Origin: Isohypsibius dastychi
Taxonomy: Eukaryota > Tardigrada > Eutardigrada > Parachela > Isohypsibiidae
Length of the DNA stretch: 27,974 bases
Direction of reading: 5' to 3'
NCBI GenBank assembly: GCA_034696485.1
Contig: JAQIWT010000216.1
Span: 1 to 27,974, forward strand
This document shows, piece by piece, positions 2,965-27,974 of the stretch. Both the position numbers and the translations under genes were made by a program. Positions within the stretch are counted from its first letter, which is position 1. The number at the start of each line of letters is the position of its first letter. Under the pieces are notes generated by a model. The model made no database searches, had not been told where the DNA came from, and saw only the letters and a list, made by a program, of their open reading frames with translations.

Positions 2965-4560
2965 GTGCCTAGGCAAGACCGGTGAAGCTGGAGAAGGGTC
3001 ACCTGCACGTTGCGCCTAGTAGAAATTCGTGTTTCAAAACTGTGTAAACCGTTGACGGGTCAACAGAATAACTGACAGATCTGTCAGAGGTGCAATGGAA
3101 AAACAGAAAAACAAGTGAGTGTACCTGTAAGATCGACAGTTCGTGGTGCAGCAGAAAAGTGAGACAGTGAAAAATACAGAGGAATATGGACCAAAAACAA
3201 GTATGAGAGCGCGAGAAGTTGCTCCGGTAATAATAATAGTGGTTTGAGTGAGAATCTTAGTGAATTTGGACCTGATTTCTTATGATGCTGTAATAAAAGC
3301 TAGGCTGAATTAAACTGGACAAAAGAAATTCCCCAATTTGTTTGTGGATTGCTGCGACATTTTGAGCCGACGATGGAAAGATTAGACTCGAATTGGCTTG
3401 TGATTGAGATGGACCAACTTTCACGGAGCTTGACAGCAGAGCTTCTTCCCAACGACTTTGATCTGCTGCTGATTATCGCGGCTCAGTACTATGAAGATGA
3501 TCTGAAAAGGACGACAGCTAAACCTAGACATCAACCCGCGATAATTTATGCTTACTGGAGATGCTGTCACCGTCAACAAGTCGAATATCCGGATCCATAA
3601 ACGGACCAATGGATTGTGCATCCCGATGTGCCCGATGAAAGAGGAGGGGATCTGGATGAGAGTCGACCAGAAGAAGAAAATGGCCAACATGAGCGTCATG
3701 TTGTTACGGCGAACTTGGGCACCTCTTGGCACCATATTTGCAGCAACAGTACTTTGACAACGAGAACACGCGTTTTTGAGGCAGAGTACAAAATATATAA
3801 CCGCGATACTGACAATTGGCACATATTGACCAACTATTACTCCAAGCGTGTGCTTCCAAGGTTGGTTTACTATTGGCCTACAAGCGTACCATGGTGGACC
3901 TGTACCGTAAGATGCACCGATACCAAACAGAGCTGGGATTTGAGTGCTGAGCCCAATGACGCTTGACAGTAGAATTAGCAAAGCGTTGAATTTCCGGTTT
4001 TTCCAAATTGTGCATCTAGTAGGATAGAAGGTGGCGCAAAATCTGCTGATTGCCAGAAACATCTCAATCCAGAATTCCGTATAGCGTGTGGCGATGAAGG
4101 AGTAGATAGTTCCCATACAAAAGGCTTGGTTCTGAAGGATCCCATCGAAAAAATAGCGAGCAATGGTGAATAAGCTGAGTGCGGCATGAATTGCAGCGTA
4201 AACCAAGTTGAGGAATATGGTGAACAGTATCAGAGTACCAGGTCCTTGACGAAGTGTTTTCTTCGATGAAATCGCAATGATCAAGAGTAGGTCCAGAAAA
4301 GCACCACCGGCACATGCCACCACCGAGGTCCAGATAAGAAGATGAAGTTGATGTCTGTTTTCGAGGATCCAACTGGAAAAGCTGGAATTGTTACCCGGAA
4401 AGATTGTCGAGTTTGAATCAGGATGCCATATCGAGATATTCATCGTATGACCTTCTGGAGTCTACGTCTTAGTAAGCATTAACGAGACAAAACTAAGATG
4501 GACGAAATGAATGTCTATGTATGTATTTATATACGAGTTATGTGCATGTACCACAAAGGG
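2965..4560. repeat. Segmental duplication, copy 1 (contains intact GPCR)
   Basis: This block matches 9340-10960 in the same orientation. Shared landmarks are AGACCGG(C/T)GAAG near 2977/9350, GTCAACAGAATAACTGACAGA near 3058/9421, CTTGACAGCAGAGCTTCTT near 3429/9750, the whole receptor body, and the region just 5' of the receptor start. The copies differ by scattered substitutions and small indels, so the duplication is not very recent. Confidence 0.85.
3421..4443 (-). CDS. Seven-transmembrane GPCR (rhodopsin-like, orphan)
   Basis: Uninterrupted 340-residue frame with an ATG start and no intron. The N-terminus (residues 1-32) carries N-glycosylation sequons (NIS, NST, NSS). Hydrophobic segments lie at about 34-58, 68-96, 110-135, 152-176, 197-222, 249-271 and 279-300, giving seven membrane helices. 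Cys109 before helix 3 and Cys188 in the second outer loop can form the usual disulfide. The DRY position is replaced by SRF (residues 133-135, followed by CATFYP), and helix 7 has SPVSINY where NPxxY is expected. These are rhodopsin-family features with altered switch motifs, as in expanded invertebrate orphan or chemosensory receptors. The ligand is unknown. A degraded paralogue lies at 9829-10711, so this is the only intact copy in view. An intron-less frame is compatible with a retrocopy but also with ordinary family expansion. Confidence 0.8.
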   Translation of the reverse strand: MNISIWHPDSNSTIFPGNNSSFSSWILENRHQLHLLIWTSVVACAGGAFLDLLLIIAISSKKTLRQGPGTLILFTIFLNLVYAAIHAALSLFTIARYFFDGILQNQAFCMGTIYSFIATRYTEFWIEMFLAISRFCATFYPTRCTIWKNRKFNALLILLSSVIGLSTQIPALFGIGASYGTGPPWYACRPIVNQPWKHTLGVIVGQYVPIVSIAVIYFVLCLKNACSRCQSTVAANMVPRGAQVRRNNMTLMLAIFFFWSTLIQIPSSFIGHIGMHNPLVRLWIRIFDLLTVTASPVSINYRGLMSRFSCRPFQIIFIVLSRDNQQQIKVVGKKLCCQAP

Positions 4561-5582
4561 AGGGCAACAAATGAGGAATGCGTTCCTTTGTGCACAGGTT
4601 AATGTGTTGAATAAAACCTAATAACAGTTGTTAATTGCGTCGCAAATGATTATCTGATTTTGATGGATCTGAATTACTAATAATATGGCTGCACGCAAGA
4701 AGAAACCTGTTACCCCGAAAATTCGCCAGATTTCATCAAAATGAAAAACTTTGGATAGACTTGACAGCCAAGTGAATCATTTCGATGTTGCCAAAAACTA
4801 ACGTCACCTGTTTTTCCTTTACCAGAAGTTAAAGTCACCAGACATCATTTCACCAAAACATTCAGTGATTACCTAGTCAATGAATGAACGTCACTATACT
4901 AGAAATGAAAATGTTGCCAAAACTGGTACTTCTCAAAAGCTACCGGTCTTTTTGGACCCACTCTCATAATTTAATACCACCGATTCGAATTGATGTCAAG
5001 CCTTGTAAAGACCGCTTTAACAGCACTCCCATTGAAATAATTCCCATCAGCTCGAACGCTATGTCCAATTGAAATAATTCCCATTAGCTCGGACACTATG
5101 TACGCTGAACGATCGTGCAACTTGAACGCAAAAGTTTACTTGGCGTGGCTTCAGCTAATTCTAGTTAGGGAGCGTTTAACTTTCACAATGCTCCCTAATA
5201 TGGAGCATTGTGAAAGTTAAACGCTCGTCTGTCTAAAGATGAAATATTTCGATGAACGCTGTCATATAATTTATTCTCGTGAGTTGAACGCACCATCTGC
5301 CAGGATCCTTAATGTTAAATCATTGTTGCAGTTTACATCGCGAATATGTATTTCCACGCGTCGCTCTTAACATTCCGTGTCTATTGAATTTTCATTTTTG
5401 GAAGAACCGTCATCGCGCGGCAAGAAAACTACGATCCACAAAATGCAAACGCAATACCAAATGACTGTGTTTCTGGCCGCCAAATGTGATCCACAATTAT
5501 GTTTTTATTAGGTAGCACTTGTCAACCCAGCCCTTTCTCGTCACGACATTGCGTCTCATTGCCATCAGGGTGCCTTAACTTA
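4561..5582. repeat. GPCR upstream region; shared flank repeat
   Basis: Non-coding. Blocks here recur in order at 1590-2000, 6120-6830 and 10975-12160; the segment ATCCACAATTATGTTTTTATTAGG with GTCAACCCA near 5490 has partners near 6770 and 11850. It therefore belongs to the duplicated GPCR unit. The 25-bp hairpin at 5170-5226 is unique to this copy. Confidence 0.7.
5170..5226. repeat. Perfect 25-bp inverted repeat with 7-nt loop
   Basis: Positions 5170-5194 are the exact reverse complement of 5202-5226, separated by CTAATAT. A second, overlapping pairing is possible: TTAGGGAGC at 5166-5174 with GCTCCCTAA further right. The corresponding place in the paralogous flank near 6390 has only one arm-like stretch, so the hairpin arose after the duplication. 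Confidence 0.9.
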
Positions 5583-5670
5583 ATATTCATCGTGTGACCT
5601 TTTGGATGTCTACGTCATAGTAAGCATTACCGAGACAAAGATGAACGAAATGCATGTATATTTATTTACT
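5583..5670 (-). pseudogene. Truncated relic of a third GPCR copy (start codon and 5' flank only)
   Basis: The sequence AATATTCATCGTGTGACC matches the complement of the GPCR start (Met-Asn-Ile) plus its 5' flank in the intact gene at about 4436-4460 (GATATTCATCGTATGACC). It is followed by the same run through TCTACGTC, AGTAAGCATTA, CCGAGACAAA and ATGAACGAAATG. The receptor body is absent: the match stops within three codons of the ATG. It records another duplication of the unit that was cut at the start codon. Confidence 0.65.
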
Positions 5671-6119
5671 TTGTTAGGAACTATGGCAGAAAGACAAAGA
5701 TCAGAAAAAGATTTCTGAAGGGATGGAAGATCTAACGTAATGACTTACGAATTGTTGTCTACGGTTTACAGGTCACTGTTGTTCAAGAAAAACACGTACA
5801 CATCGTTCACCAAATTCACTTTATATTAAATTATTTTCTTAAATCAAAACTGCTACTTGTGCAGATCAAAAATACAAAAGCTTTAAGGACGATCAATCTT
5901 GTTCTACTTTTTCAGGGTATTTTTGTTTGACTTTTTAAATGCAAACTGACAGAGGAGTTGAACGGACTGACCCGATTCTTAACCTTCGGTTATATCGAAG
6001 CCATTCACCGTAAAGGGATAAAATAAGACGTTGCTACTTGGATACAACCTTGCGCAAAAATCTCAAGGTGGTCTTGTCAACCGAGTAAATAACGTAGGTT
6101 TAGCAAGATACTAATCTGA
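5671..6119. other. No gene recognised
   Basis: AT-rich intergenic sequence without a supportable frame or repeat boundary. Confidence 0.35.
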
Positions 6120-6830
6120 CCTGTTTTTGCTTCGCCAGGAGTTCAAGTCACCAAACATCATTTCTCAAAGAGATCCGGTGAATAATCAGTGAATGAACGT
6201 CACTATACTGGAAAAGAAAATTTAGCTAAAACTGGTACTTTTCAGGAACCACTTGTCTCTTCTGACCTACCCTCATGATCTAATACCACCACTTGATTTT
6301 CCACACCCATAAACACCGCTAGAACAGGATCCCAACAAAAAATAACTCTAGTTGACTCTAGTCAGGTCAGGAGCCATAACGAAAGCTGAGAGATCGTCTA
6401 TCTAACGATGAACAATTCCGATTAACACAGTCTTATATTTTATTCTGTTTACTTGAACGCATCCTTTACCAGGATCTTCAATATCGAATCATTGTTGTCA
6501 TACATCGCAAATTTATATTTCCCAATGAAAATGTCACAAACCTGTAACTCCGAGACAAAGTCTGAGTTTCATCGACTGAATAGCTGGTTGTTGTACGTAA
6601 TATGTTCTGACATTCCAGCTGAAGCTGACATGAACAATTGTTTTCAAGCACTATTTTCAATCTTACACGCAAGTCGCGAAATTGCGGAGTCATCAAGCGG
6701 CATGAAAATTACGATCCACTAAAAGCGAACGCAATAACAATTAATCGTGTTTATGGCTGCCAAATGCGACCCACAATTAGATTTTAATCGGTGTACTCGT
6801 CAACCCAACCCTTTCCCGTAACGATATCCC
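6120..6830. repeat. GPCR 5'-flank repeat, additional copy
   Basis: Aligns by eye with 4800-5560. Shared blocks include GAATGAACGTCACTATACT, AAAACTGGTACTT, ACCCTCATGATCTAATACCACC, TTGAACGCA(C/T)C with ACCAGGATC, and GACCCACAATTAGATTTT with GTCAACCCAACCCTTT. Small deletions distinguish the copies. There is no receptor body. Confidence 0.75.
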
Positions 6831-7805
6831 ATCACGACGTCCCATTTAAAAGTGTATCAAGAAGAAGGGGGGGGGGACTGAGGCCAGGGCCCATATAAGA
6901 TTTTTCGGACCCAAACACTCGGCCCCATATAAGAAATTTTTTTGCCCCGCATTACTGGCCGCATTTATAAAATCAATTTTTTACCCCGTATAACGTCATT
7001 TATGGGCAAAAAAGCCCGAAAATCACTCAAAAAACACGTTGTTTGGTCAAAATCGTTCATTCTGGCTCCATGGGGCCTGCAGAATTCTTGGATCTTGCAT
7101 CACAATAGCGAGCACATACCGCTGGAAATAAGAATTATTCGCCGCTGGCCCGTTGAAGTTTCAGACCTAGATACACCCATGGTCCTATTGTCGTACTTTC
7201 GTTCACTAGTGGTGCTCAGCTTGATGGATGATACACGGCCGACCTCATCGGTCAATGCTCGGCAGCGAATTAGTTTGTTTTGCCAATGCGGTGTTTATCC
7301 AAAGCGTCGGGTGCGAAAGATACATTGCGAAACGCAGACTGTTGATAACTATGAACAACCACGTTGCTGGTGCGTGTAGCACGTTTTCCGTTGATCGGTT
7401 TAGGGTGCCAAGAGAGAAGAATACAGATCATTGGTTTTTAGCAGATGTTTTCTCTCGAGCTGTGAACTGTGGAAGCTCCTGCTGACCAGGTAGGATGAAA
7501 TGAGCTTGAATATTCCTGAGCACCAAGACGGGTTAGGTGTATTGTACTGGATGCCGTGATAGATTGCTCGAAACGATCCTCACGGTCACCGCAAATCAAC
7601 ACTAACATCCGAAATGTATCAAAAGCTGATCCAGAGACGACAACCTACCACATCGATACCTTAGATGTAATTTGCGAACACCATGAATGCAGCGTGCAGA
7701 AAATGCAGAAAGAAAACCGTCGGTCTGCACCATCATGAAATCGAACATTGCTGATCTTACACACATGAACATGCTGCCCCAATAGTTTTCTACTAAGAGG
7801 CTGAC
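6831..7805. other. No gene recognised; short G-run and degenerate GGCC(C)CATATAAG repeats
   Basis: A G homopolymer lies near 6866-6876. It is followed by three imperfect copies of GGCCCATATAAGATTTTT spaced 35-45 bp apart (about 6887-6985). Open frames at 6942-7379 and 7228-7485 have no recognisable domain and overlap in different frames, so I do not call them genes. Confidence 0.4.
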
Positions 7806-8226
7806 GTTCTCCACCCGAAAACTCGGAATTCAAAGCGAAAAAACACAATCTGTGGGTTTTTTGCACTGATTTTACCTAACCAATGACTCGGTTGGATGTT
7901 GGAAAAAAAGATTACATGGAATGAAGCCATAAATGGCTCTTCCCTTGTTCAGCTCATCCATAAATGGAACCTCGAAGCTACGTTGTTGCTCTGTTTTTGG
8001 TCGGGTCGATCCTGAACCGTAAACTCCACCTGTGAGCGCTGGTTAGCACCGCAAACCAACTGCGGCCACTCTTCTACAAAAAAAGCCGTTTCTCCCTATT
8101 CTCCCTTTTCTCAGCGATGAGCCCTTATTCCCTGTCCAACCGAGTCACTAGTCAGGCAAAATTCAGTGCAAAACACCTACAGCTTGCACTTTTCTGTTCT
8201 GAATTCCTAGTTTTCGGGTGGAGAAC
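7806..8226. repeat. Imperfect inverted repeat, arms of about 91 bp
   Basis: Positions 7806-7896 and 8135-8226 are reverse complements at about 80% identity by eye, with only a one-base length difference in the aligned part. Shared blocks are TCCAACCGAGTCA, CAGTGCAAAA, GAATTCC and TTTTCGGGTGGAGAAC. The arms enclose about 240 bp with no coding potential. Weak similarity continues inward and outward, so the original inverted duplication may have been longer. Confidence 0.75.
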
Positions 8227-9009
8227 ATTGGATTGTGAGATTATTGTATCGGTCGGGAACTTGCTTCAGAGATGTCAAGTTAGCAAGGTTCGGGCTCGTA
8301 AGCATCATGAAAAAGGATTGTTGTTTGCTCATAGTAGTTGGTCAAACACAGTTTTCGTACACATTGCGCAATGGCGTGAACGTGATGCATGATGGAAATG
8401 ACAGACTGACTTGTGCCTACAACTCTCGTTTTCAGGTGCCAGGACCAGAACTATTTTGCAGTCAAACACCAGGACACCTAGTACGAGCTCAGATTAAGTG
8501 ACCGTCAAACTAAATTGTTTGGGTATTTTCAAACATTTATTACCTTCAATCGGCTTTGATGAAGCAATACACGTATCTGCTCGAAGAATTTTTCCATAAA
8601 TATAATAGAACCTGCAATCGCAGAAACTGAATGAATCATTGGATTGGTACAATGTTTTATCATATCCGTTTGATGTCGATTTTCGCGCAAGCGAAAAGGC
8701 CTACTGCAGAAGGTTGAGTAACGGAATTGTAGAAAACATGCTGGAGCTGAATTCGTCTCGAACTATGCGAAAACATATCAAGTTCTCAGAGGAAGGTTCG
8801 ACAATGTCAGCTGTCCGTTCTTTTTCCCGAGTGAACTGAAGGCTGTTTCACTTGTTTCAAACGGAGACGACCATTGATTGCTGTCGAAGAAAAACCTCCC
8901 ATGTGTGCAGTTTGCTCAACTTGAAAGACGGCAGTTCTTTGTATCGAGTGACTTGCATTGGGAAAAGGTCATGTTTCCCAATGTCCACTCAAGAAGCGCA
9001 TTTCTTTCC
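8227..9009. other. No gene recognised
   Basis: Only short overlapping frames without motifs. I see no RNA gene or TIR boundary. Confidence 0.35.
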
Positions 9010-9160
9010 AAACGTAGACTCTCCAGATCATGTTGAGTCCTCTTATGCTAGTTAAAGGAGTGCGACCCATTTCGAAATCAGATTCGAAAACGACAGAGTA
9101 AAAAAATTGGCTTTTTATTTCATAGACTCTCAATTATGTTGCCTCTAGGATAAGTCAGTC
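9010..9160. repeat. Segment duplicated at about 12608-12795
   Basis: Direct repeat. ACGTAGACTCTCCAG near 9014 matches ACGTAGAGTCTCCAG near 12608. The stretch GAAAACGACAGAGTAAAAAAAT, GGCTTTT, TAGACTCTCA, TTGCC and AGGATAA at 9084-9155 matches 12714-12785. It extends the duplicated domain beyond the GPCR units. Confidence 0.65.
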
Positions 9161-9828
9161 ATACGGTAGCCAAATTGTGTCGTCATTAAATCCTGTTTGC
9201 AAATGCCTTTCTCATCTGACAAACTCGATATCGTCCTGCCCTATTTCGGCAGCGGCAAGTATCTTTCTAGATCAAACTCGAGAGGCATGCAAATATGTGA
9301 TGGCCGCTTGTAAAAACGCATGTGTTCCATTGTTGTGCTTAAGCCAGACCGGCGAAGTGGGGCAATTGCACGTTGTGCCCAAGGGAAATTCGTGTATGAA
9401 AACCATTTAAACCGTTGATGGGTCAACAGAATAACTGACAGAGCTGTCAGAGGTGCAGTGGAAAGCTGTCAGAGAAAGCAGAATAAGTGAGTGTACAGTA
9501 TGCGAGGCAGCAGATGAATGAGACAGTGAAAATACAGAAGAATATTGGACCAAGAATAAGCATAAGAACGTGAGAAGTGACTGCGGTAGTAGTCATGGTA
9601 GTCTAGTAGAACTTAACTGGACAAACTGGACAAATCATCTATGGGTCTTTCGGTTCGGTCGCGGACTCCTTACGACATTTTGAGTCCATGATCGAAAATT
9701 CATGTTCGAATTGGCATGAACTTGAGATGACCAACTTGGGATTTCACACAGCTTGACAGCAGAGCTTCTTGCCGATGACCTCGATCTGCTGCTGATTATC
9801 GCGGCTCAGTACTATGAAGATGATCTGA

Positions 9829-10711
9829 AAGCATAAAGTCTAATTCTAGTCATGAACCTGCAATAATTCATGATTACCGGAGACGCTGTCACTGTCAACA
9901 AGCTGAATAGCCGGATCCATAAACGGACTAATGGGTTGTGCTTGGCAATGTCCCCGATGAAAGAGGCTGGAATTTGAATGAGGGTGGACCAGAAAAAGAA
10001 AATGGCCAACATGAGCGTCATGTTGTTACGGCGAGTGTGGGCACCTCTTATCGCCACATTTGCAGCAACAGGACTTTTACAACGGGAAAACAGGTTTTTC
10101 ATGCAGAGGACAAAATATATGACCGCCATACTAAGAACCGGCACATGGTGACCAACTATCACTCCAAGCATGTGCTTCCACGGTTGGTTTACTATTGGCA
10201 TGCAAGCGTACCATGGTCGACCTGTACCGTAAGATGCACCGATACCAAACAGAGCTGGGATTTGGGTGCTGAGCCCAATGACGCTTGACAGTAGAATTAG
10301 CAAAGCGTTGAATTTCCCGTTTTTCCAAATTGTGCATCTAGTAGGATAAAAAGTGGCACAAAATCTACTGATTGCCAGGAACATCTCGACCCAGAGTTCG
10401 GCATAGCGTGTCGCCGTGAAGGAGTAGATAGTCCCAGTGCAAAAGAGTTGGTTTTGAAGGACACCATCGAAAAAATAGCGAGCGATTGCGAATAAACTTA
10501 GTGGGACATGAATTGCGGCGTAGACAAAACTGAAAAATATGGTGAAAAGTATCAGAATACCAGATCCTTGACGAAGTGCTCTTTTCGACGCAGTAGCGAT
10601 CACCAAGAGTAGATCGAGAAAAGCACCGCCGGCACATGCACCACCGAGATCCAGATCAGAAGATGAAGCTGATGTTTGTTTTCGAGGAACCAACTGGAAA
10701 AGCTGGAATTG
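9829..10711 (-). pseudogene. GPCR pseudogene, paralogue of 3421-4443
   Basis: The receptor body aligns closely with the intact gene from helix 1 to helix 7; the SRFCATFYP, TQIPALFGIGASYGTG and NNMTLMLAIFFFWSTLIQIP blocks are shared. Three lesions break it. First, one base is missing near 10640, in the codons equivalent to Val-Val-Ala-Cys of helix 1, so the N-terminal tail is out of frame with the body. Second, one base is missing near 9835 after helix 7 (about residue 310), which gives an early stop at 9829 instead of the 30-residue C-terminal tail. Third, the segment encoding the first residues and the ATG lies in the opposite orientation at 10740-10820. Helix 7 reads SPVIMNY. The long frame that remains open after the first frameshift starts at an out-of-frame ATG and lacks the N-terminal sequons, so I do not regard it as functional. 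Confidence 0.8.
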
Positions 10712-15330: not shown

Positions 15331-15432
15331 CTGAAATTATTCGGAATAACATGAAAACATAAATCAATGATAAATTATTTTCGAAAAATATAACAAAATA
15401 CAAACAAAATACATTAAGAAGCGTTTTCTTAA

Positions 15433-16417
15433 CCCATTAGTGGCCGTTGGTGATTTAAATCACCAGCAGTTCCCCGAATTATTGTGAGACATGTGATAAA
15501 CTTATGAGACCTCTGATTACAGATTCGGTAAATTTAAATCTTGTGCTACCGATGCGTAATTTTTAAAAGTTTCCTTGCTTTGGTTTTAAAGTCGAAAAAA
15601 TGAATCGAAAAGTGGCATCTGAAGGGGGTTGGGTTCCACGATCTACAACTCGATAATTATTCGATGAACAAATCTTAGAAAATTATGTTAGTTTCATAAA
15701 GAATGATAGTTGGCATATAAAATCAGTTCAAGATAAATGATCGAAAAACTTTCGAGTTTTTTTAATTCATTCATCTCTGGTGATTTAAGTCACCACTGGC
15801 CACTGAGAGGTATGAAAGTGCGGTCCCATTTTTTCTGTCTGGTCGGTGGGTCAGCTGGGCATTTGTTCTCCCCAGTTGTGAGCGAGACGAAGAGATCAAA
15901 CAAACACGATTGCGGCACGTTAATTTGTAAAGAAGACAATGCAGGCCTATTCAATGAGCTTATCTTGATCAAGCCTACTGAATGGTCGTTTCGCATTTGG
16001 GCAGCTGGCTGGTGGGGCGAGTTGTGAGGGCCAGCCGACCAGATTCCTACCGCCGAAATGGTTTAGCATTTGTGGGAGAACCGCAAAAAACAGAGTAGTG
16101 TAACTACAAACATCTTTAAGATTATCATTATTCACAAACTCTCCTGTAGTAAGATGTCTGTGGCATGAAAATATCCGCGGCAATTGCGAGAAAAAGTGAT
16201 AATGGGCAACTGGTTTCTCTCTGCCTCTCAGTCACCAGCCGGTCAAATCTGTTCCCGCGAGTGGCCACTGGTGACTTAAATCACCACTCAAGAAATCATA
16301 TTTGTGAATGAGCTAATTTTTTGAAAATAAATACAGGATCAAGATGAATCATTTTAAGGTAGCCTAGAAAGTTTCATGGAAATCGGACGATTTTAAAGGG
16401 TAGCGGCCACTAATGGG
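15433..16417. mobile_element. Nonautonomous piggyBac-type element in a GST intron
   Basis: 985-bp element with TIRs CCCATTAGTGGCCG (15433-15446) and the exact complement at 16404-16417, flanked on both sides by TTAA (15429-15432 and 16418-16421). This is the target duplication and CCC terminus typical of piggyBac. It contains a 16-bp palindrome GGTGATTTAAATCACC at 15449-15464 and one-mismatch versions at 15779-15794 and 16270-16285; two of these lie beside further GTGGCC(A) motifs. The open frame at 15737-16027 has no transposase motifs, so it needs a transposase in trans. It sits in the intron between the GST exons at 16522 and 15330. Confidence 0.88.
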
Positions 16418-16521
16418 TTAAATTTCATTCAAATTTTAATAATTAGTTAGCACTCTGTGGAAAACACAGTTGTGTTGTTCGTGGTAACTGACAACAGCCA
16501 GTCCCCACTTCCGGCACTTGC

Positions 16522-16574
16522 CTGCGGGTTAAACGCCTATCCTTTTTCCTTAGTCATAAGCCAGTCAACAGCGC
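16522..16574 (-). pseudogene. Xi-class GST, 3' part of the interrupted exon
   Basis: Reads (A)VDWLMTKEKG-stop-AFNPQ and ends at a GC donor (CAG|GCAAGT). Family members have a Trp at the stop position (KGW-x-F), so TGG has become TAG at 16537-16539. Spliced to 15330 it continues into [10 protein letters not shown] as in relatives. The first four bases after the transposon (GCGC on either strand) are one copy of the target duplication. Confidence 0.85.
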
Positions 16575-16990
16575 TTGTAGCGGGCAAAATAGTTGAGCGG
16601 TTGATTCAACTAATCAGCTTATTTGCCCGGCAAAAGAGTTGAGTCGGCAAAACAGTTGATTTTCCGAAACCTTGATTTTCATCATTCGCAGTCACTGGAT
16701 TTTCGCCAAAATTCACCGTCCGGTGTCTATCTAGAGAACTAACTGACCACTCAAGAATAGACTCGATGAAACAAGAAGATTCTACGAGGCATGTTGATTC
16801 AACTAATTTGCCCGTCAAAATCGCATGACGAAACTATTTCATGGTCTGAATGACAGTTTCTTGTGTCAGAAATCGTAATCATTTTGTGACTTCCACTATC
16901 ATTCGTTGTCGTTTACTTGTAAGTGCAAAACCAACCTCGAGTAGACATTTAGGTGACGAGAAACGGTGACATTCGGGAAATCAACTTTTT
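16575..16990. repeat. Left terminal inverted repeat of the Ginger-type element
   Basis: Matches the reverse complement of about 23275-23689. The outer 160 bp is nearly identical (CTTGATTTTCATCATTCGCAG and GTCCGGTGTCTATCTAGA shared). Similarity then declines but returns near the inner end (GACGAGAAACGG(T/G)GACAT, GAAATCAACTTT). It contains copies of a GTTGATTCAACTAA ... TTTGCCCG motif, also near 16795. Confidence 0.9.
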
Positions 16991-17137
16991 TGCCGTTCGG
17001 TTGCCTTTGACTGCCTCCGATGAGCCGTGTATATTCGAGACGTTTTTATCAACCCGACCTCCTACTTCTGGCTTTGTTGCTGGATCACATGAAGAACTTT
17101 CGCACAAACCACAGATTGCTTTAAAGATCACAATTAC

Positions 17138-17465
17138 CTTCAGAAATGTTTGGGACGTGGGCGTTGGAGCAGAATTTGCAACATCCGAAGCGTTCACGGG
17201 TCAACCCAACTGGAATGCTTTTTCGAAGATCAGCCCTGTAGTAACAGCATTTACCATGATAACGTTTGAACTTGCATTGAAGCTTGTCACAGCGGTACGT
17301 CCATTCAATTTTTGACTGCGTCGGCATTCGGCATAGGCAAATAATCTCGGTCGTCTCTGGGTCACTGCGTACTGTCTTGAGGCGAACATCTTGCTTTACC
17401 GTTCGCAACGGAAACGGGGATATAACGTGGTTCTCCAGACATTTCAACAGGTGTTTACGAAGCAT
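17138..17465 (-). CDS. Ginger-type polyprotein: C-terminal PHD-type zinc finger exon
   Basis: Starts after acceptor GGCAG (intron 17466-17530, donor GTATGA) and ends at donor GTAATT (17132-17137). The first residues, MLRKHLLKCLEN with ISPFP, are the usual C-terminal end of a Ulp1-like protease domain. They are followed by a zinc finger with the PHD ligand order: ICLC (C-x-C), RCDKLQC (C-x4-C), YHGKC (H-x2-C) and CCKFC (C-x2-C). PHD fingers bind histone tails, which in a transposon could direct target choice. A further short exon with CGLC and SSSCD (about 17040-17110) may follow; I could not fix its splice sites or a stop. Confidence 0.65.
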
Positions 17466-17530
17466 CTGCCATACAAAAGAACGGTCATATGCCATACAAT
17501 TAGATCTCGCAAACTGCTCATGCTTCATAC

Positions 17531-17920
17531 CGGCCAATCGTAGCTACAACTGGATGGATCGATAGAAGCGCCAAGTGAAACCACAGTTGCAATTGCATAA
17601 ACTCCACATACACTATTATCGGGCTGGCGTTCCACTTCGGGCCAGATGGCGTGATATTCGTCTTCACGGAATCGGAATACCGCTGCAATTTGATGCTTTA
17701 GTTGGAACTCCATTATGGATCCCTTTGTCATCCCGAGGCTATCGTAAATAAGTACTATATTGACCGCTCCAGGATGCTGATTGGCGACGACAACAAAATG
17801 ACATCCACCAACAAAAAGGATTTGTGTCTGGCGTGAACTGGCTCCGTCACATTGAAAATTTGTTCGGCGCAACTTCCATAGTTTGGCTGTTGATTCAAGG
17901 CCGTAATCCCTCGCGGATCC
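17531..17920 (-). CDS. Ginger-type polyprotein: Ulp1-like protease domain B
   Basis: C48-type cysteine protease fold. The catalytic set is visible in order: His in GGCHFVVVAN, Asp in LIYDSL, Gln in VERQPDN and Cys in NSVCGVYAIA. The preceding block DYGLESTAKLW resembles the GLQST segment upstream of the His in this subgroup. All four residues are intact and the frame is open. Ulp1 enzymes cleave SUMO-like peptides; in transposons they may mature the polyprotein or remove SUMO from it, which is inference. The acceptor at 17921-17923 (CTAG) is my best choice, and exons just upstream (17940-18120) are unresolved. This domain differs in sequence from domain A, so it is not a recent duplicate. Confidence 0.75.
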
Positions 17921-18198
17921 CTAGCTGAACAAAGTGCTGTTTCTGAGACCACTGAGATTCTGGTAGTTCGTCTTAACAAGGGACATGCTCTCTGATATGA
18001 CTGAATCGTTCAGCTTACGTTATTCTCAGTCACCCGCAGTCTATCCCCGAGTGAAAGGTTCTCGACTGTTCCTCGGAACCAAGAGACCGCGCGACAAATC
18101 TTGTCGTCTGAAAGAATTTCAGTCCGTTAACAACAGCACAGGATAACGTTCACCGGTATTACCTTCGTGGATTTTCAGTCTTAGCACAGTAGATGCCT

Positions 18199-18559
18199 AC
18201 ATCCATGCGTCATAATTGATCAGGCTTAACAACTCGTCGGAAGCCTTTGTCATAGCTGAGAAAAACGTCGCGGAATCAGCTGCAGAAACGAAAGACAAGC
18301 CCGGAACGAGCAGTCCAACAGCGAGGTATTCTCTTCTCTTAGATATTGCAAGTTCGAACTTATTCTCGGAGAGGGCAAACAACAGTGACCTTTCCATAGC
18401 GTTCAGCATCTCTGTTTGAAATATCCGCCTAAAAATCACGAACGTCTCGCTTATCTCTTCCAGACGTACATCTGGAACGCTGATTGGACTTTCTGCTGTC
18501 TCATTTTGAATTTCACGTGAGCGTAATCTAGATTCGGTCTCCTTTGCTGTCGTGGTTTC
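18199..18559 (-). CDS. Ginger-type polyprotein: linker exon between protease domains
   Basis: Open frame after acceptor GTATTCAG (18560-18567) in the same phase as the exon ending at 18678. About 120 residues: an acidic and Thr/Ser-rich start (ETTTAKETES) followed by a helical stretch including RRIFQTEMLNAMERSLLFAL and FFSAMTKASDELLSL. I see no catalytic or metal-binding motif. A GTAGGC donor directly follows TGG-AT near 18199. It probably spaces the two protease domains; an independent function cannot be excluded. Confidence 0.5.
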
Positions 18560-18677
18560 CTGAATACAAATGAATGGATCAGCTTTTGGCGTGTTGCACC
18601 TTATACAATGATCAACCGTTCCTCTCCCCCCCCCCCTGACACTGGTTTCTCATCGATTAACTGAACTTGCAGAGTAC

Positions 18678-19556
18678 CACTATCTGCCAGTTCTCTTCAC
18701 ACGTCACCTTTTTCAGGATCTTCTCAAACTCCCACTGCTGTAGAAGCGCCGGAACAAAGTCAACTTTAATGGATTCGCACTTGGGATTCCACGTTGACTT
18801 TGGATAGGGTGCTAAGCTCTCAGTCACAGGAGCTGGAATAATACTGGATCCACGAAGACACAGCTCAAACCACCGCCGAATATCCGCGATATCGAAATCG
18901 TAGTCTTTCGGGTTCCTGCCACGCGCAACAAGGTATGCAAAGACAACTGCAAACAAACCGCAACTGACACCGTCTATCTGTCGCTTCACAGCCACAGGGG
19001 CAATCCGTATCTCCGTTTCCCCACTACCGTAGCACCGCCAAATTTAAAGTTTGGACTTCCAGTTGGGCCGCATATCCAAACTATCGAAGTACAAGACTTC
19101 TCTTGTAGACTTATCCCACGATGTGACAAAGAAGTGGTTGACATCGTTGAAATGAATTTGGACGCAAACCTTGCTTTTCTCCATACCTGTGAAATTTGGA
19201 GTCTCGAGTTCGGATGAAGAGAAACATCCGGAAACTTCCGCACAAGAATCTCTGATGAGACGTGCCACGGCGAAAACGAGAATAGGGCTCAGTGGCTTCC
19301 CTTCACGGAGCTCCTGTACATCGCTTTGGAGAATTGTAAATTCTTTCACCAAGAATGCGATAGCGTTAGCACCACCAAATTTTTCAAGATTGTTTGAGGC
19401 GGCAGGTGGATTTGTAGTAGAGGAATGCTGTGTGGACTCTGGTTTGGGAGTGAATTTTGGGATGAACTGTACGGGATTCAGCGTTGGGTGATATAGCTTT
19501 AGTTGCTGATGACTGTTCAGAATTCTACGCTTCGTCCGTTCTCCTACTGTTCGTGC
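18678..19556 (-). CDS. Ginger-type polyprotein: Ulp1-like protease domain A, with in-frame stop
   Basis: Exon from acceptor GCATTTAG (19557) to donor GTACTC (18672-18677). The first part is a basic, Pro-rich linker (KFTPKPEST region). The C48 catalytic set follows: His in DVNHFFVTSWD, Asp in YFDSL, Gln in KRQIDG and Cys in DGVSCGLFAV, then ARGRNPKDYDFDIADIRRWF as in cellular and transposon Ulp1 domains. A TAA at 19044-19046 interrupts the frame between Asp and Gln. Reading continues in the same frame on both sides, and the Asp-Gln spacing (about 35 residues) suits the family only if the stop is read as a point mutation. A 35-nt intron there is possible but would shorten the spacing to about 25. 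Confidence 0.75.
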
Positions 19557-19606
19557 CTAAATGCGCTTTGTCAGAATATGCAGAAATCACTTCATAATGA
19601 ACCCAC

Positions 19607-21689
19607 TTTGTACGGCTTATCGCGTTTTGCAGGCCCTCGCAACTTTTTGTGTGCAAGGTCAGCATATGCTGGAGCCATATCGGTATCTTTCTGCAGGGCT
19701 TTCCCGCCTGAGAGGACAGATTCTGCTTCCATCTCATCACTTAGGCCCTTGCCTTGATGCACACTGAATTTCACTTCTTTGCCGCCGACCACACTTGGTT
19801 GTTCCCGGTTTCTATCGGCACCACTGGGCTGAAATTTAAGTATGCGAACGTCCTTGTTACTGATAATGTAGAACTCGTTCTGGTGGCTGATACGGACGTG
19901 GTTCTTCAGAACTTCAACAACAACTCCAGGTCCGAGGTTTTTGTCTGTTTTGGAGTGTAGTTGGTTCCCTTTCTTTCTAGGACGAAACATCACTGTCTGG
20001 CCTTCAAGAAAAGAGGAATTTTTGAGCACACCAACTGAGTTGAAATTGAATGCTAACCTTTCTGCAGTTCTACTCCACTGTTCTTGTTGCGCTTATCAAA
20101 AGAAGTTTTTTGTCGGAGTCGTTCTTTTTGAATGTTGCTCGTTACCGTATCCCGAAGCATGTTTTGAATTTCGGCATAACGTTTTACGGTCTCCAAGCAC
20201 TGCATGTTTGTTTCCACAACAAACTCGGGCGCATCCATTCTATTTAAAAACTGAATCTCGTCATCTTCGCGGTCGTCCTTGCTCGTGCTGATACGGGGTC
20301 GGAAAGTATGCATGAGTTCGAAAGGAGCAAAACCAGTTGCCGCGGACGGCCGGATATTGATCTCGAACATAACTGAGTTCAGATGCTCATCCCAATCGTT
20401 TCCAAGCTCACTAACTTTTGTTTCGAGATGCCTGAACGAAACATTTGTGATTCTCTGTTTTCGTGAAATAATATTAGGTTACCGTTTCACAGTTCCATTC
20501 ATCTTCTCAATCATCCCGTTCGCGCGGGGCGTGTATGGCCTCGTTGTCGAATGGGTGATCCCAAGAATGGCGTTCATTTCGCGGTTTAACTGCATTGAAT
20601 GAGCATTATGTGGCCGTACTCTTCTTTGGTGTTGAAAAAAACCAACCTCGTTCACGAATTCCCTCCCGTTGTCTGTGATAATACGAGGTGAGAACAGGTG
20701 CATCGGTGATGTAAATTTCTACCTGTGATAATTCTTTGAGGCGCACCAAACCGGCTGTACACTTGCTCAAACAGTGCTCTCGCCACAGTTGAGCCTTCTT
20801 TGTTTGGGAGTGGTACGGCAACTGCCATCTTCGTCCAATAATCCACAAGCGTGTGTGCGTACTGGTTTCCTCTCGAGGTGATTGGAAGTCTGATTAGGTC
20901 CATTCCGACCAGATACCAGGCTCGAGACTTGATGGTCACTTGTTGTAAGGTATCCTGTGGTTTCAGAAGACCCCTCCCACGCTTTTGACATTCCACACAT
21001 GCTTCGGTCTAAAAATGAATAAGGTGAACATGAAGTAGCAATCTGCCTGAGATTTGCACATACAACTGACAATACATCTTTTCGTATCGACCTCAAGTGG
21101 AATTCTTCGCTGATGCGTTTGATCAAGTAATCCCGACGGGCATGATTCGAGCGGCTACAACAGAAAGAGACCGACGAAGTTCAGAATGGAAGAAAAACAG
21201 ACGTATTCGTTACTCACTTGTGTTGTTCCCGAACAATCCTCTGTCGTTCTTCCTCTGTTTCTGGGTATATCACGAACTTGCCACCTGGATTTCTGATCAG
21301 AAGGACATCTCCTCTCAAACGAAACTGCTCCCATGCTTGTCGTCGAACAACTTCAGTTTTGCCCCGAGTGAGTCCATCGAGATGTTTTTTGTGGACAATG
21401 TAGTGTTTGATTGCTTTTATGTTAGGGCCAGTTTTACGTTTGTCGATCACTTCAGTACTGCATTCATCTACACATTAGATTGAAAGGTATAGAAAACCTC
21501 ACATTTTTCGTCATAATCGATTGCCACCTGAATCTGATGAGCTTTCGTTCAATTGACCCTGGTCCGAACCACTTGTTCTCGTACGTTCTGGTCGGTTGAA
21601 TCATTCGCTGTAAATTCGGTCAGCTCTCGGTCAGCCGGCTTATCGTGTAGCCGATTCACTGATTGCTGAACGTTGCTCTGGTCGACCAT
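19607..21689 (-). CDS. Ginger-type polyprotein: gypsy-like integrase (HHCC, DDE core, GPY/F)
   Basis: Exons: about 21689-21503 (start MVDQSNV; an internal intron is likely), 21467-21218, 21154-21064, 21008-20723, 20672-20647, 20589-20483, 20431-20058 and 20001-19607; all junctions from 21467 onward are in frame. The zinc site is H-x4-H-x29-C-x2-C, assembled over three exons (REQH, SNH, ACVEC). Core residues are Asp in VGMDLIRLP, Asp in IITDNGREF and Glu in NGMIEKMN, the DDE triad of retroviral/gypsy integrases. A C-terminal GPY/F-like module follows: KGQTVMFRPRKKGN and LGPGVVVEVLKNHVRIS. The enzyme would cut and join the element's ends. The chain continues into Ulp1 domain A (PYK|ARTVG). Catalytic residues are intact. 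Confidence 0.85.
20673..20722 (-). other. 50-bp intron with direct repeat at both splice sites
   Basis: In coding orientation the exon before ends AATTATCACAG|GTAG and the intron itself ends TATTATCACAG|AC, so ATTATCACAG occurs at both boundaries. Splicing joins IIT to DNGREF through the catalytic Asp codon (G|AC). The duplicated boundary is the footprint expected if the intron arose from a local duplication with a filler. Confidence 0.8.
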
Positions 21690-21982
21690 GGTTGCGCTTT
21701 AAAAAGGAGAAGCGGCATATGGAAATGATGACTTAAAATGGAGACAGGGGGGGGGGGGCGAATCCCGATACTGCAACATTGCATAAACCGTAACCACACC
21801 ATGATTCCCACTACCCCATATGTGCATATGAACTGAGAACGAGTCAAAAAAGTCGACCCAACACTTGTGTAGCTCAACTACTCAACGGTCCGTCAGCTAG
21901 CTCTTAGAAACTGATACTTCCGATTTAACGCAGAAAACCAGATAAAGGACACTTCAACACGTTTTTTCTGCTTCAAAAAAGT

Positions 21983-22534
21983 TTAAAAAAATTCAAACCT
22001 GTTTGGGATCGGCTGAATATGAGGGCGTGTTGCACCATCCCTTCCTTGATCTTGGATAATATTGCAATCGGGTATCGCAGACGGTTCAGCATGACTGTAT
22101 TGCTGATCAGTCTGGCCAGGAATCGGATGAGGTTGTACGTATGGGATAAACGAGTTACAATCTCCAAAAGAAGACATATTCCATTGATATTGCCCATGAA
22201 AATTTCTCGCATCGGTATGAGGATGAACACAAGCCTCTGGCGGCACAATCCCGTATGGTGGCTGATAAAAGTTTTGTGCATAGCGCCCAGTAGGTGGCTG
22301 ACAAATTCCCAGGGAATTACAACACGTACACATTCTCTTCCACCCAGGCCCATGGCAAAAACCATGCATACAGTTCTGTCCTACCTCGTGCCACTGGTGA
22401 TAAACTGGGCCATTCAAGGTACCAGATGAACTCTGTGGGACGAAACCTGAGTGACAGTCCTGTTGAAACGGTAAGTTTGCCTGGAACGGTCGAGACGATC
22501 CATCATTCGCGGGATTGGAGAATGGGAACTGATT
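21983..22534 (-). CDS. Ginger-type element: Pro/Gln/Tyr-rich N-terminal exon
   Basis: Open frame from ATG (MNQFPFSNPA) of about 183 residues, rich in Pro, Gln, Tyr, His and Cys, with YQPPYGIVPP and PYVQPHPIPGQ stretches and a Cys cluster (CMHGFCH, MCTCCNSLGIC). It resembles a disordered or gag-like N-terminal region rather than an enzyme. A possible donor (AACAG|GTTTGA) lies at the end, but I could not find the splice that links it to the integrase exons, so it may be a separate small protein. The frame can be extended upstream only without an ATG. Confidence 0.45.
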   Translation of the reverse strand, partial: NQFPFSNPANDGSSRPFQANLPFQQDCHSGFVPQSSSGTLNGPVYHQWHEVGQNCMHGFCHGPGWKRMCTCCNSLGICQPPTGRYAQNFYQPPYGIVPPEACVHPHTDARNFHGQYQWNMSSFGDCNSFIPYVQPHPIPGQTDQQYSHAEPSAIPDCNIIQDQGRDGATRPHIQPIPNRFEFF

Positions 22535-23274
22535 CATCACGTCTAGCAATCTGCAAGGTGTCGTAAAATTCAGATACACAGCCCATACGCTGCTTTCGGG
22601 GAATGGGTTCACATTGAGAACCGTTCCTAAACACTGACGCAATCAGCCAGACGACAACAACCGCTGCTACCTTCTGACAGCGTTATCTCACTTTCAGCCT
22701 TTTGGCATGCTTTCAATCGGCGGCATGTCCTTTGAAGTGAACACAAAAGAGATATGTATCACTGAAGTTTTTCCAGCTGATTGCCAACTGCCTTTTAGAG
22801 TACTGCTTATGCTTCAGATCCAGACATCATTCAGTTCAATTAAGAATCAGGTTGATTTACATACGCCAATGGTTCAACGCACAAAGACAGCCGCCAAGCA
22901 GTGACCTGAAACCACTTAAACTAGAGAAAGAGGAGCATTTCGTGAACAAGGTAATATTGTTGCTTCACTATCTTGCTGCGCTCAAACACGGAAGGGCATC
23001 TTGATTCGGATATTTCGATGTCCAAAACTTGAACCACCAACAGTATCGCTTTCGACTGTCGGCAAACCGCAAACTGAAAATGGGTGGTGGAATTGCATCA
23101 CAGACATGAACCACCCGAATCGAGCTGAGTAGATTCTGTACTTTAAAGAATCAATTATTTTGCCCGTTTGAACATCGGGCAGATAAGTTGATTCAACTAT
23201 TTTGCCCGTTTGCACATCGGGCAAAAAAGTTGATTCTTCAAAGGTACCGCGGTCACACAGTGTTCGAGCGTCAG
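22535..23274. other. Non-coding 5' region of the Ginger-type element
   Basis: Lies between the first coding exon and the right inverted repeat. It holds the paired GCCCGTTTG-ACATCGGGCA subterminal repeats (about 23160-23230), each of which can form a small hairpin. The element's promoter should be here; I cannot identify it. Confidence 0.5.
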
Positions 23275-23689
23275 CAAAGTTGATTTCTCAGATGTCCCCG
23301 TTTCTCGTTACTAAAATGTCCATTTGAGGTGGTTTTTGCATTTATAGATAATGAACAACCAATATTGATGGCGGTCTTGAAAAAATTGCGAGATCTGACG
23401 CAACAAACTGTCAGTTAGACGATGAAACAGTTGTGCCATGCATTGTTAACGGGCAGATCAGTTGAATTGCCATGCCTGATGGACAATTCTTATTTCATCG
23501 TTTCCACTCTCAGGTGATCAGCTAGTTTTCTAGATAGACACCGGACGGGGAATTTTGGTGAAAATCTAGTGACTGCGAATGATGAAAATCAAGGTTTCGG
23601 AAAATCAACTGTTTTGCCGACTCAACTCTTTTGCCGGGCAAAAAAGTTGATTAGTTGAATCAACTGCTCAACTATTTTGCCCGCTACAA
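23275..23689. repeat. Right terminal inverted repeat of the Ginger-type element
   Basis: Reverse complement of the left repeat. Just inside it, at about 23150-23240, lies a tandem pair of ATTTTGCCCGTTTGNACATC with GGGCA and AAGTTGATTC, giving a cluster of subterminal TTTTGCCCG/GTTGATT sites that could be integrase binding sites. Confidence 0.9.
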
Positions 23690-23751
23690 ATGCTCATCGA
23701 AATTGCGTCTTCCAGTCCCTTCAGTTTTCTCGCGATGATGGCGCGATGTGC
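23690..23751 (-). pseudogene. Xi-class GST, 5' part of the interrupted exon
   Basis: Begins after CTTTTCAG at 23752 and reads AHRAIIARKLKGLEDAISMS, matching the family block just after the catalytic Cys-Pro-x. It runs straight into the inverted repeat of the transposon at 23689. Together with 16574-16522, minus one 4-bp duplication, the exon is 111 nt, phase 0 at both ends. Confidence 0.88.
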
Positions 23752-25589: not shown

Positions 25590-27544
25590 TTATTTTTTTT
25601 GTTTCTGGTCTCGTTTGACCTGCGCCATATTTCGAGCATGTTGCTCGGTTGCTTCAGTTCTTCGAATATATCCACTCAGAACTGTCTTCGCTAAAGTCCG
25701 AAAAATCCGATTCCACCACAGTTCTGTATTTTGATCACAAGACGAACAAATAGTTAGAACTGATGGGCACTGTGCTTTAAAATACTCCATTCCCAACAAT
25801 TCCAGTAGCTTCACTTGATGACTGATCGAGCGAAAATATTTTCCGGCTTCATCCGAACCCACAATCGTTTGAACGCGATATAAGCAATCAGCCGCTCTCA
25901 CAACCACCTCAGTCGGATATGTCAGCGCACCACGGTCGATTGACAAAAGATATGCATAGCATTCAGGTTCTTCGGTAACCATCGAGCGGTTCTGATCGAA
26001 AGTTTGCTTGCACTCGATGCAGCTTTCAGAAGTCTTTCTCCAGTGACTTTTAAGCTTCATGACGGCATACCCGCTGATGACAGTCAGTGACTCAAGTTCT
26101 GGTTATGTAATCCCATCACTGTCAAATTCAGCAGAATTGATAGCATATCGAAAAAAATCCAGCATCGCATCGTCCGTCATCTCAGTGTTATGGTCTATGG
26201 CGTTCTTCCAAAATGGAACGTTTGACGTTTTGTACGCTATCAAATAACTGAATTATTATACTGAGGTGATGAGCGGATGACGCTTTCTAACCTTTCAAGC
26301 AGTTTATAATAAGGGTTTTTTTAGTCGCTTCCAACATCTCACTTATTGAAACAGCATACTTTGCACCGCATAACTGACGAACCCAACCAAAAAACCCCTC
26401 CAGGTGATCGGTTGTAATCTTTCCAAGGAGAACATAATCCACACCTGTATAGTATGAAGTATAAATGGTGTTCACGAAAATAAACTAAAACTACAAACAT
26501 CTATTTACCTCTTTGGTTGAGCATGTACTCTACATACATCAGCGTGACATTTATTTGTTTGATGAGTGCCGTGAATGTCTGCTCCGTTAAACCGTAGAAC
26601 TGGTTGGCGCCAGGTTTCTGAACTTCGGTTTTCCATTTGATCAGCATTGACAACAGCTCTCGTAAAAAACCAAGTCTGGAATCGTTGATGCTTCTCAGCG
26701 GCTCTTGGAAAAGGTCACGGCTGAACTTCCCCTGTTGTGGGAAGCGAACATTGTTCATCTTGTACCAGCGATTGAATAGGTCTAAAAAGTCGGCAGTAGT
26801 TTCCCAGTTGGATAGCTGAAATTGTGGTTTCGCGCCGATGTAGCGAAGAGTACTGACGGTCGAGTCATCGAAAATGACCCGTGCTAATCTGACGTTCTGC
26901 TTCGCTAGATTGGTGGGGTAAAGAGCGTCCTTAGATAGTTTGTGGGACAATCGCACGGTCCCACAGTCTATCTGATGGAGATTTCTCAGAGTCATGAAGT
27001 TTGCTTTCACTGCTATTGATTCTGACCAATCAAGACCTGGGCGCGGGCCTTTTGGAACAGGATAAAGAAAAACGCAGTTTGTACCCGATCTGAGCCAGTT
27101 GTTCCTGATACACTTGAGGATGTGTATGTAATCAAACGTGAAGTATAAAGGCCTTGGGGAAGGATTGGCTGCGTTGAACTTGCAGTAGGAGTTGTTTTGA
27201 GGCATGAGTCCGATTTCATTTTCGGGTTGGTTGTTCTTGATGAATAGCAATCTAGAATTCAAAAACATTAACAACTATCTTAACCACAGAAATTTGCATT
27301 ACCTGAACGCTTTGTTGTTGACGGCATTGTTATCGCTGACAAGAGTAACAACTTCGAGCGACATTTTCTCCAGTGCAGTTACTATTTCTTCGATTTTGTC
27401 CGCTACAAATTCCGCCGTGAGATTTTTCACCGGATATATTCCGAGTGGTAGTTTGATACGTGAAAGCAACCCAACGACCATGAAAGTCAAGGCGGTGCCG
27501 GCTTTCTCTCCTAACTGACTCTCATTCATTGCTGCACCAAAAAT
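25590..27544 (-). pseudogene. THAP9/P-element-type transposase, 5'-truncated, one in-frame stop
   Basis: Four exons in order: 27544-27303, 27251-26509, 26444-26292 and 26236-25590; introns are 51, 64 and 55 bp and all junctions keep frame. Family blocks visible: LVSDNNAVNNKAF (RNase-H-like core, catalytic Asp), LYFTFDYIHILKCIRNNWL (second Asp region), TADFLDLFNRWYKMNN, TTDHLEGFFGWVRQLCG (the conserved DHLE-x-FFG element near the catalytic Glu), then ISGYAVMKL, SCIECKQ and YLLSIDRGALTYP of the C-terminal region. These enzymes move P-type elements by cut-and-paste. The N-terminal THAP zinc finger is not in the window; the first exon seen begins mid-protein. TAA at 26103-26105 falls in the last exon between domains, with the frame continuing on both sides. 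Confidence 0.85.
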
Positions 27545-27974
27545 CTGCAAAGTTAAAAATATAACTTCCGTTATTCTGACTGTTCTGAGCATACTTTCCA
27601 GTAAGAAGAAAAGACCGACGCATACTTCAGACCGTGAATTACAAAAAAAACGGTAGTAGGAGTAGGCAAAGCTAGCGAGGCAGACCAGGCGGGGGGTATG
27701 CCAGTGGGTTTAAGGTTTTGAAAACGTTTTAACATATGAATCTATGAAAATTTGAAAATGGGAGGCGTGGCCTAAAAACTTTTTATACTGGGGGCCGGGC
27801 CAGCCGGCCAATCAGAGAAACCTTTTTCAAAACTTTTTGCCTCGTCCTCCAGCGGTCCACTGTAGATGAAGGGATTTTTGGGGTGGACAAAAAACTGGCA
27901 AAAAATTAAAATTCGATGTTTTTTGCTTTCTAAGCGAAAAATGTTTGAAAAGTTCATGAATTTCAAAAAGTTCC
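27545..27974. repeat. Right edge: transposase intron/flank and dispersed repeat
   Basis: From about 27750 the sequence carries GGGAGGCGTGGCC, GCCGGCCAATCAGAGAAAC and AAAACTTTTT runs like the repeat at 11130-11260 (GGGAGGCGTGTCC, CCAATCACG, AAAGTTTCG). GCAGACCAGGCGGGGGGTA lies near 27680. No coding sequence is supported. If the repeat lies inside the transposase gene it would be in an intron; otherwise it marks where the gene was truncated. Confidence 0.5.

Follow-up and report, generated by a model that had tools for sequence, protein, structure and literature searches.

In the tardigrade Isohypsibius dastychi, a 27,974-nucleotide stretch of DNA (contig JAQIWT010000216.1, positions 1 to 27,974, here called the window) contains an element with long terminal inverted repeats (TIRs) that encodes a Gypsy-like integrase, two different C48 (Ulp1) protease domains, which we named A and B, and a PHD-type finger. 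Judging from the sequence, we consider it rather probable that this element is a decayed copy of a Ginger-like cut-and-paste transposon, the family of which would make one large spliced transposase with A, B and the PHD-type finger. That one element contains a PHD-type finger and two C48 domains that differ from each other, as claimed in the original prediction, was confirmed by a minus-strand gene model, by profile comparisons, by the catalytic residues and by related elements. The additional claim of a single spliced polyprotein agrees with a GT-AG exon model and with two relatives (C499 and C1525) that are open, with zero stops, from the integrase through the PHD-type finger. As the better-preserved relatives in the genome keep both domains, the pairing of A and B is real and long-standing.

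The element in the window and its gene model

A repeat search of the window revealed inverted arms at 16570-16999 and 23265-23694, which are 430 nt long and 81% complementary. Since 6 nt of each arm represent the target duplication, the TIRs proper are 424 bp long (16576-16999 and 23265-23688). The element itself has 7113 bp (16576-23688), with a TGTAGC tip at either end and the minus strand as the coding strand. Its ends are inverted and are not direct long terminal repeats (LTRs), so that it does not fit a Gypsy LTR retrotransposon; no reverse transcriptase was found in the 10 open reading frames (ORFs) of the element that were submitted to Pfam. The GT-AG exon model reads on the minus strand, in one frame, from an H2C2 zinc finger through the DDE core, domain A, a linker and domain B to a C4HC3 finger, and the window domains A and B each show His, Asp, Gln and Cys. 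The features are given below; loci with this domain order are referred to as class 1.

16570..16575, plus strand: copy of the target duplication, AGCGCT; the partner at 23689-23694 is AATGCT on the plus strand (decayed, 4/6 bases agree)
16576..16999, no strand: TIR at the 3' end of the coding strand, tip TGTAGCGGGC
17121..17465, minus strand: putative last exon, with the C-terminal helix region of domain B and the C4HC3 PHD-type finger (gene model, alignment)
17531..18107, minus strand: predicted end of the linker and most of C48 domain B, with a frame change near 18019-18018 and a TAG at 17921-17923
18163..18559, minus strand: putative linker exon, with matches in four other class-1 loci, broken by a TAG at 18197-18199
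18831..19397, minus strand: C48 domain A, inside the predicted exon 19556-18678, broken by a TAA at 19044-19046
19607..20001, minus strand: predicted integrase C-terminal region, with GPG at the GPY/F position
20058..21008, minus strand: remainder of the zinc finger, followed by the integrase core with its D, D and E conserved (predicted exons 21008-20723, 20672-20647, 20589-20483 and 20431-20058)
21064..21467, minus strand: pre-finger region and first half of the H2C2 zinc finger (exons 21467-21218 and 21154-21064 from gene model and alignment; Pfam Integrase_H2C2 in the C1525 copy)
21558..21696, minus strand: putative second exon (gene model)
21999..22537, minus strand: putative first coding exon, Pro/Tyr/Asn/Gln-rich and probably disordered, upstream of the integrase exons
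23265..23688, no strand: TIR at the 5' end of the coding strand, tip TGTAGCGGGC

Because of its three in-frame stops, in domain A, in the linker and in domain B, and one frame change, the window copy is dead. At the stop positions of domain A and the linker, C499 has sense codons. The "intron" 18018-17921 of our initial gene model was wrong, the stretch being coding in four other copies; the introns placed there by the aligner in C499, C1525, C1514 and C469 are artefacts, because the window protein that served as guide is broken. The first exon (22537-21999) has 38-39% identity in C499 and weaker matches on C873 and C454, and first ORFs of similar composition, as judged by eye, were seen in C1525, C1514 and C469.

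Of the integrase signatures originally proposed (HHCC, DDE and GPY/F), the H2C2 and DDE residues were recovered and are conserved in 3/3 aligned copies, whereas GPY/F was not: its position reads GPG in the window, C499 and C1525, and there is no GPY/F in C1514 and C469. Separate Pfam searches, which had been suggested for each domain, detected rve (E 3.8e-14) and Integrase_H2C2 (E 3.5e-10) in C1525; in the window, on the other hand, the C48 match of domain A stayed under the cut-off, domain B gave a weak C39 match and PHD was not found. The B-type domain of another locus, C254, lies above the Pfam C48 cut-off. Pfam alone barely detects these domains; the case is built on profiles, catalytic residues and relatives.

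Relatives, protease domains and a second domain order

In the assembly (30.4 Mb, 1648 contigs), matches to window domain B with at least 48% identity were found at seven loci: C216 (the window), C499, C1525, C469, C35, C1514 and C128. Domain A is present in five of the seven, and these five (C216, C499, C1525, C1514 and C469) have identical domain order and strand, so that the expectation of both C48 domains in other copies holds at four other loci. Their spliced models are 41-73% identical to the window protein and have six intron positions in common, in the same phase and within one residue; guided as they were by the window protein, they are uncertain in weakly similar stretches, for example past domain A in C1514 and C469. 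The C1525 copy is a whole element of 8279 bp (1683-9961), with tips at both ends and an exact 6-bp duplication, AGCGTG. At C35 and C128, B occurs without A. Copies with one C48 domain, which the original prediction named as evidence against the pairing, thus do exist, but these two look like truncated copies, because no integrase is found among the matches listed and the match starts inside the linker or inside B. Other integrase matches (for example C134, C1604, C1255 and C287) were left out of the classification; many of the long frames among them may be Gypsy elements.

The residues His, Asp, Gln and Cys, which in this order form the C48 (Ulp1) active-site motif, are invariant in 8/8 domains when A and B of the four non-window loci are aligned. 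Relative to the C499 copy, the other A domains are 51-52% and the other B domains 49-60% identical, and the four B domains have 22-26% identity to C499 domain A. A comparison of the A and B profiles with hhalign gave an E of 1.7e-14, and a joint A+B profile found SENP5 as the top match among solved structures (E 6.8e-4). In the tree, the A domains form a group of their own with a support of 100/100. The ratio of nonsynonymous to synonymous substitution rates (dN/dS) was 0.147 and 0.063 for domain A and 0.132 and 0.153 for domain B, as obtained from the two unsaturated pairs out of ten for each domain, one pair including the dead window copy. Domains A and B are under similar purifying selection (dN/dS 0.06-0.15), and from their sequences both proteases look alive in the relatives. 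The pattern of zinc ligands C4HC3 is that of a PHD finger, and all eight ligands are invariant in 7/7 sequences; the best solved relative of the finger is that of YNG1, only at E 0.27.

A second class of elements, represented by C254 and C471, has a different organization. These loci have the integrase, a B-type C48 domain and the PHD finger, and past the finger, in the same open frame, a profile search found a second C48 domain (domain C). The order is therefore A-linker-B-PHD in class 1 and B-PHD-A-like in the second class, and two C48 domains are present in 2/2 second-class loci that can be read beyond the PHD finger, as the C609 contig ends first. Two earlier views were dropped: that C254, C471 and C609 are single-C48 elements, as the domain A profile located another C48 past the PHD finger in both C254 and C471, and that A is a simple insertion ahead of B-PHD, because that second C48 is A-like.

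Domain C is nearer to A than to B, both by profile score (31.9 versus 16.4 bits in C254, 18.0 versus 7.6 bits in C471) and by hhalign (E 4.9e-8 to A, 2.2e-6 to B). Its N-terminal stretch aligns with an extension of A that B is without, and its Gln is one residue more distant from the Cys. Trees place A and C together against B and the second-class B-type domains, with supports of 84/89 and 86/90 on long branches that meet, and we regard the tree evidence for this grouping as moderate. A linker shared by the two classes is unsupported (hhalign probability 1.9%, E 0.025). Because two C48 domains, differently ordered, occur in the second class as well, the C48 pair probably predates both classes.

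Several other C48-related matches were observed in the assembly. A lone relative of domain A (37%) lies at C218:11527-11961, with no integrase or B among the matches listed. Domains A and C have C48-like matches at C1043:6873-7499 and C740:8182-8733, inside open frames of 2027 and 837 amino acids, respectively, perhaps of other mobile elements. The strongest Pfam C48 match of the assembly (C393:11539-11838, E 1.5e-8) has no DNA likeness to the element and is perhaps a host Ulp/SENP gene.

Element ends and target duplications

For the analysis of target duplications, 19 two-tipped pairs were picked by eye among the places listed; C521, C502, others that are not plainly one element by their two ends, and all single ends were left out. 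A 6-bp duplication is exact in 12/19 elements and agrees in 5/6 bases in two more, and the remaining five (C977, C204, C766, C87 and the window) are poor fits. When flanks of different elements were compared at 6 bp as a control, 3/342 were exact. No exact duplication of 4 or 5 bp was seen (0/19), and a 4-bp duplication was accordingly rejected. The central bases are CG in 11 of the 12 exact duplications. In C254, long inverted repeats at 8787-9407 and 15529-16135 have TGTAGC tips, and the flanks TGCGCT and AGCGCG match in 4/6 bases.

At C204 (14490-16166) and C766 (729-1447), the left 6-bp flank recurs at the right with five extra bases (TACGC and CGTGT, respectively) before the tip. A 2.9-kb non-autonomous relative at C609:7120-9978 has the exact duplication TACGTA, and part of the PHD exon survives in it with 74% identity at the DNA level. 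In the window element and related copies, the inner ends contain a motif like GTTGATTCAACTA with TTGCCCG many times over, and these repeats are possible transposase binding sites.

Elsewhere in the window, short inverted repeats around GGTGATTTAAATCACC at 15429-16421 perhaps mark a small non-autonomous element. Fragments of a transposase like that of the P element (Pfam TNP-like RNase H and GTP-binding insertion) lie at 26501-27709 on the minus strand. Two similar rhodopsin-type receptor ORFs, also on the minus strand (3421-4461 and 9812-10711, the latter just under the Pfam cut-off), are perhaps a local duplication.

Known elements and competing explanations

The comparison with Ginger1 draws on parts of the description by Bao et al. 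(2010; PMC2836005). As described there, Ginger1 elements have a Gypsy-like H2C2 and DDE integrase, TGTNR tips (here TGTAG), TIRs, a target with a CG core and a C-terminal Ulp1, to which Ginger1-9_HM adds a PHD; in all of these the present element is alike. The same description (PMC2836005) gives Ginger1 one C-terminal Ulp1 or OTU domain (here two C48 domains), 4-bp target duplications of CCGG or CCGT/ACGG (here 6 bp), TIRs of 40-270 bp (here 424 bp), a length of about 2.6-7 kb (here 7.1 and 8.3 kb) and 0-4 introns (here about ten), and the present element has no clear GPY/F. The CG target core is thus common with Ginger1, but the stagger is not. By analogy, this DDE cut-and-paste element very likely works like Ginger1. 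We use the name Ginger-like and do not place the element in Ginger1, because the duplication length, the TIR length, the single protease and the GPY/F that mark Ginger1 fail; the originally predicted Ginger membership does not hold for Ginger1 as defined, the larger number of introns being a further departure. Only a partial likeness to the YPYY motif of Ginger1 was seen by eye. In an integrase tree built without Repbase references, a 100/100 clade unites the window class with C254 and P0002 and keeps them separate from the six rows that have reverse-transcriptase-type domains; the tree does not set the window class off as one clade against C254, nor does it fix the place of P0003.

Ginger2/Tdd elements are similar in their Gypsy-like integrase and TIRs, and we know of no C48 pair in them. 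Their duplications are 4 or 5 bp long, and those of Ginger1 4 bp, in the part of a 2023 paper drawn on here (PMC10045372), against 6 bp in the present family. According to the same part, IS3EU/GingerRoot elements do have 6-bp duplications, but their tips are mostly TA...TA and they lack HHCC, whereas TG...CA and H2C2 are found here (PMC10045372). A 2026 paper on Imagin, of which the main text does not contain the word Ulp1, describes a domesticated Ginger1 integrase (PMC12863088).

Two proteins from the collections are related in part. P0001 (514 amino acids; SWIM-type, C48 and PHD) has a C48 domain followed by a CxC-type finger, as here, and aligns with B at an hhalign E of 1e-17, but it has no integrase and only one C48; its SWIM and PHD were read by eye, Pfam giving C48 only. 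P0003 (653 amino acids) has an integrase and then one C48-like domain with His, Asp, Gln and Cys (hhalign E 1.5e-9 to B, 7.2e-7 to A), but no second C48 and no PHD, and its precomputed Pfam entry is without C48. P0001 was also the single match of query A2 among proteins, with scoring confined to the 7995 candidates that had most words in common with it. The C499 protein matched none of 7364 candidates in the protein collection, and nothing was found with profiles A3 and A4 in viral contigs or with A2 in genome contigs. No relative with both C48 domains was found outside the assembly, in collections that are poor in animal sequence, so that this absence means little. Two Ulp1 domains in one transposon are reported nowhere in the literature found, as judged by titles and abstract openings and with subscription journals thinly covered.

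In the proposed explanation, the family transposase would consist, in this order, of a probably disordered N-terminus, the H2C2 and DDE integrase, A, the linker, B and the PHD-type finger. The integrase would bind and act on the long TIRs and, as the observed duplications suggest, insert with a stagger of 6 bp, for the most part into sites that have CG at the centre. Domain B and the finger make up a C48-PHD module resembling that of other animal transposon proteins; it may dock on chromatin, where B would free the transposase, or proteins of repair or silencing at the site, from SUMO or a related modifier. An action of the Ulp1 or OTU domains on DNA repair factors during or after transposition was considered possible by Bao et al., in the part cited here (PMC2836005). 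Domain A would be an older, diverged second protease, kept by selection with a complete active site, and would act on something that B does not, be it another modifier, another chain type or another partner, instead of cutting its own protein. We infer that two different SUMO/ubiquitin-type deconjugating roles are likelier than self-cutting.

Polyprotein cutting by one of the proteases was put forward in the original prediction; as a rival explanation, A could be a processing protease, comparable to the viral C48-like ones, whose cuts would separate an integrase from a B-PHD protein. This is unlikely in our judgement. In the window's class A does stand between the integrase and B-PHD, and the stretch past A is variable; self-cutting is nevertheless unsupported because no Gly-Gly is conserved between the domains. 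The only Gly-Gly common to four copies sits within B, C1525 being without any other (only Gly-Gly sites are considered here), and the A-like domain of the second class lies at the frame end behind the PHD finger, a poor spot for releasing others. We would give little credit to the idea of A as a superfluous duplicate of B without a separate function: the two domains are homologous, but purifying selection on A is about equal to that on B, and A keeps the four active-site residues and its separate 100/100 group. An origin of A and B in two separate elements, nested or fused, or in a pair of neighbouring genes seems hardly credible. An arrangement not described in the literature found, in which the two halves are joined on sequence only, would agree with it, but five loci (41-73% identical to the window protein) have the same order and shared introns, nothing resembling a tip lies between A and B in the window, and C499 and C1525 each have one open frame. 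Domain B, the origin of which in a second nested element would have told against the original prediction, was found to have no termini of its own.

It is possible, though to our mind doubtful, that a second C48 was gained separately in each class, A and the A-like domain C then not being the same domain. Domain C stands elsewhere in the order and is far diverged, and the tree support for A+C is limited by the long branches; against this, C is closer to A by profile and shares with it the N-terminal extension missing from B.

It is important to mention the observations that weigh against the proposed explanation of one large transposase with two maintained proteases. At C755 and C161, which have related integrase exons, both A and B fail an E of 0.1 in the 4.0 and 2.5 kb read, respectively. 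In C161 (27500-30000), a C48 tail, together with a PHD-type finger (E 4e-4), follows immediately after the integrase, and the element is apparently internally deleted; C755 shows neither in the 4.0 kb read. The statement that both C48 domains occur at every locus with this integrase was therefore dropped, and the pair is typical of well-preserved copies but not proven for every copy. C1531 is a fragment with an integrase C-terminal piece only. C1514 and C469 have one in-frame stop each just past domain A, perhaps because of a missed intron. The A profile alone reached SENP chains only at E of at least 0.16, behind short matches to other proteins, and the B profile alone found a single Ulp1-like protease at E 0.5. 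With predicted local distance difference test scores of 39 and 45, the AlphaFold models of A and of the domain B exon could not be used, and both the one-polyprotein and the protease-activity readings are drawn from sequence. Finally, A could have originated either by gain in one class or by shuffling between the classes.

With the two-protease transposase retained as the preferred explanation, we tentatively propose that these elements may represent a previously unrecognised Ginger-like group. The group would be characterized by a maintained, non-redundant pair of A-type and B-type C48 domains, ancestral to the two classes and kept through domain reshuffling (A-linker-B-PHD versus B-PHD-A), and by a mostly CG-centred 6-bp stagger. 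If this is true, two distinct ubiquitin-like modifiers or targets would be handled in each transposition cycle. Why many eukaryotic transposases carry a SUMO/ubiquitin-type protease is an open question, and a family that maintains two unlike proteases with complete active sites in one transposase makes this question testable. The 6-bp, mostly CG-centred duplication, in turn, broadens the known behaviour of Ginger-like elements.

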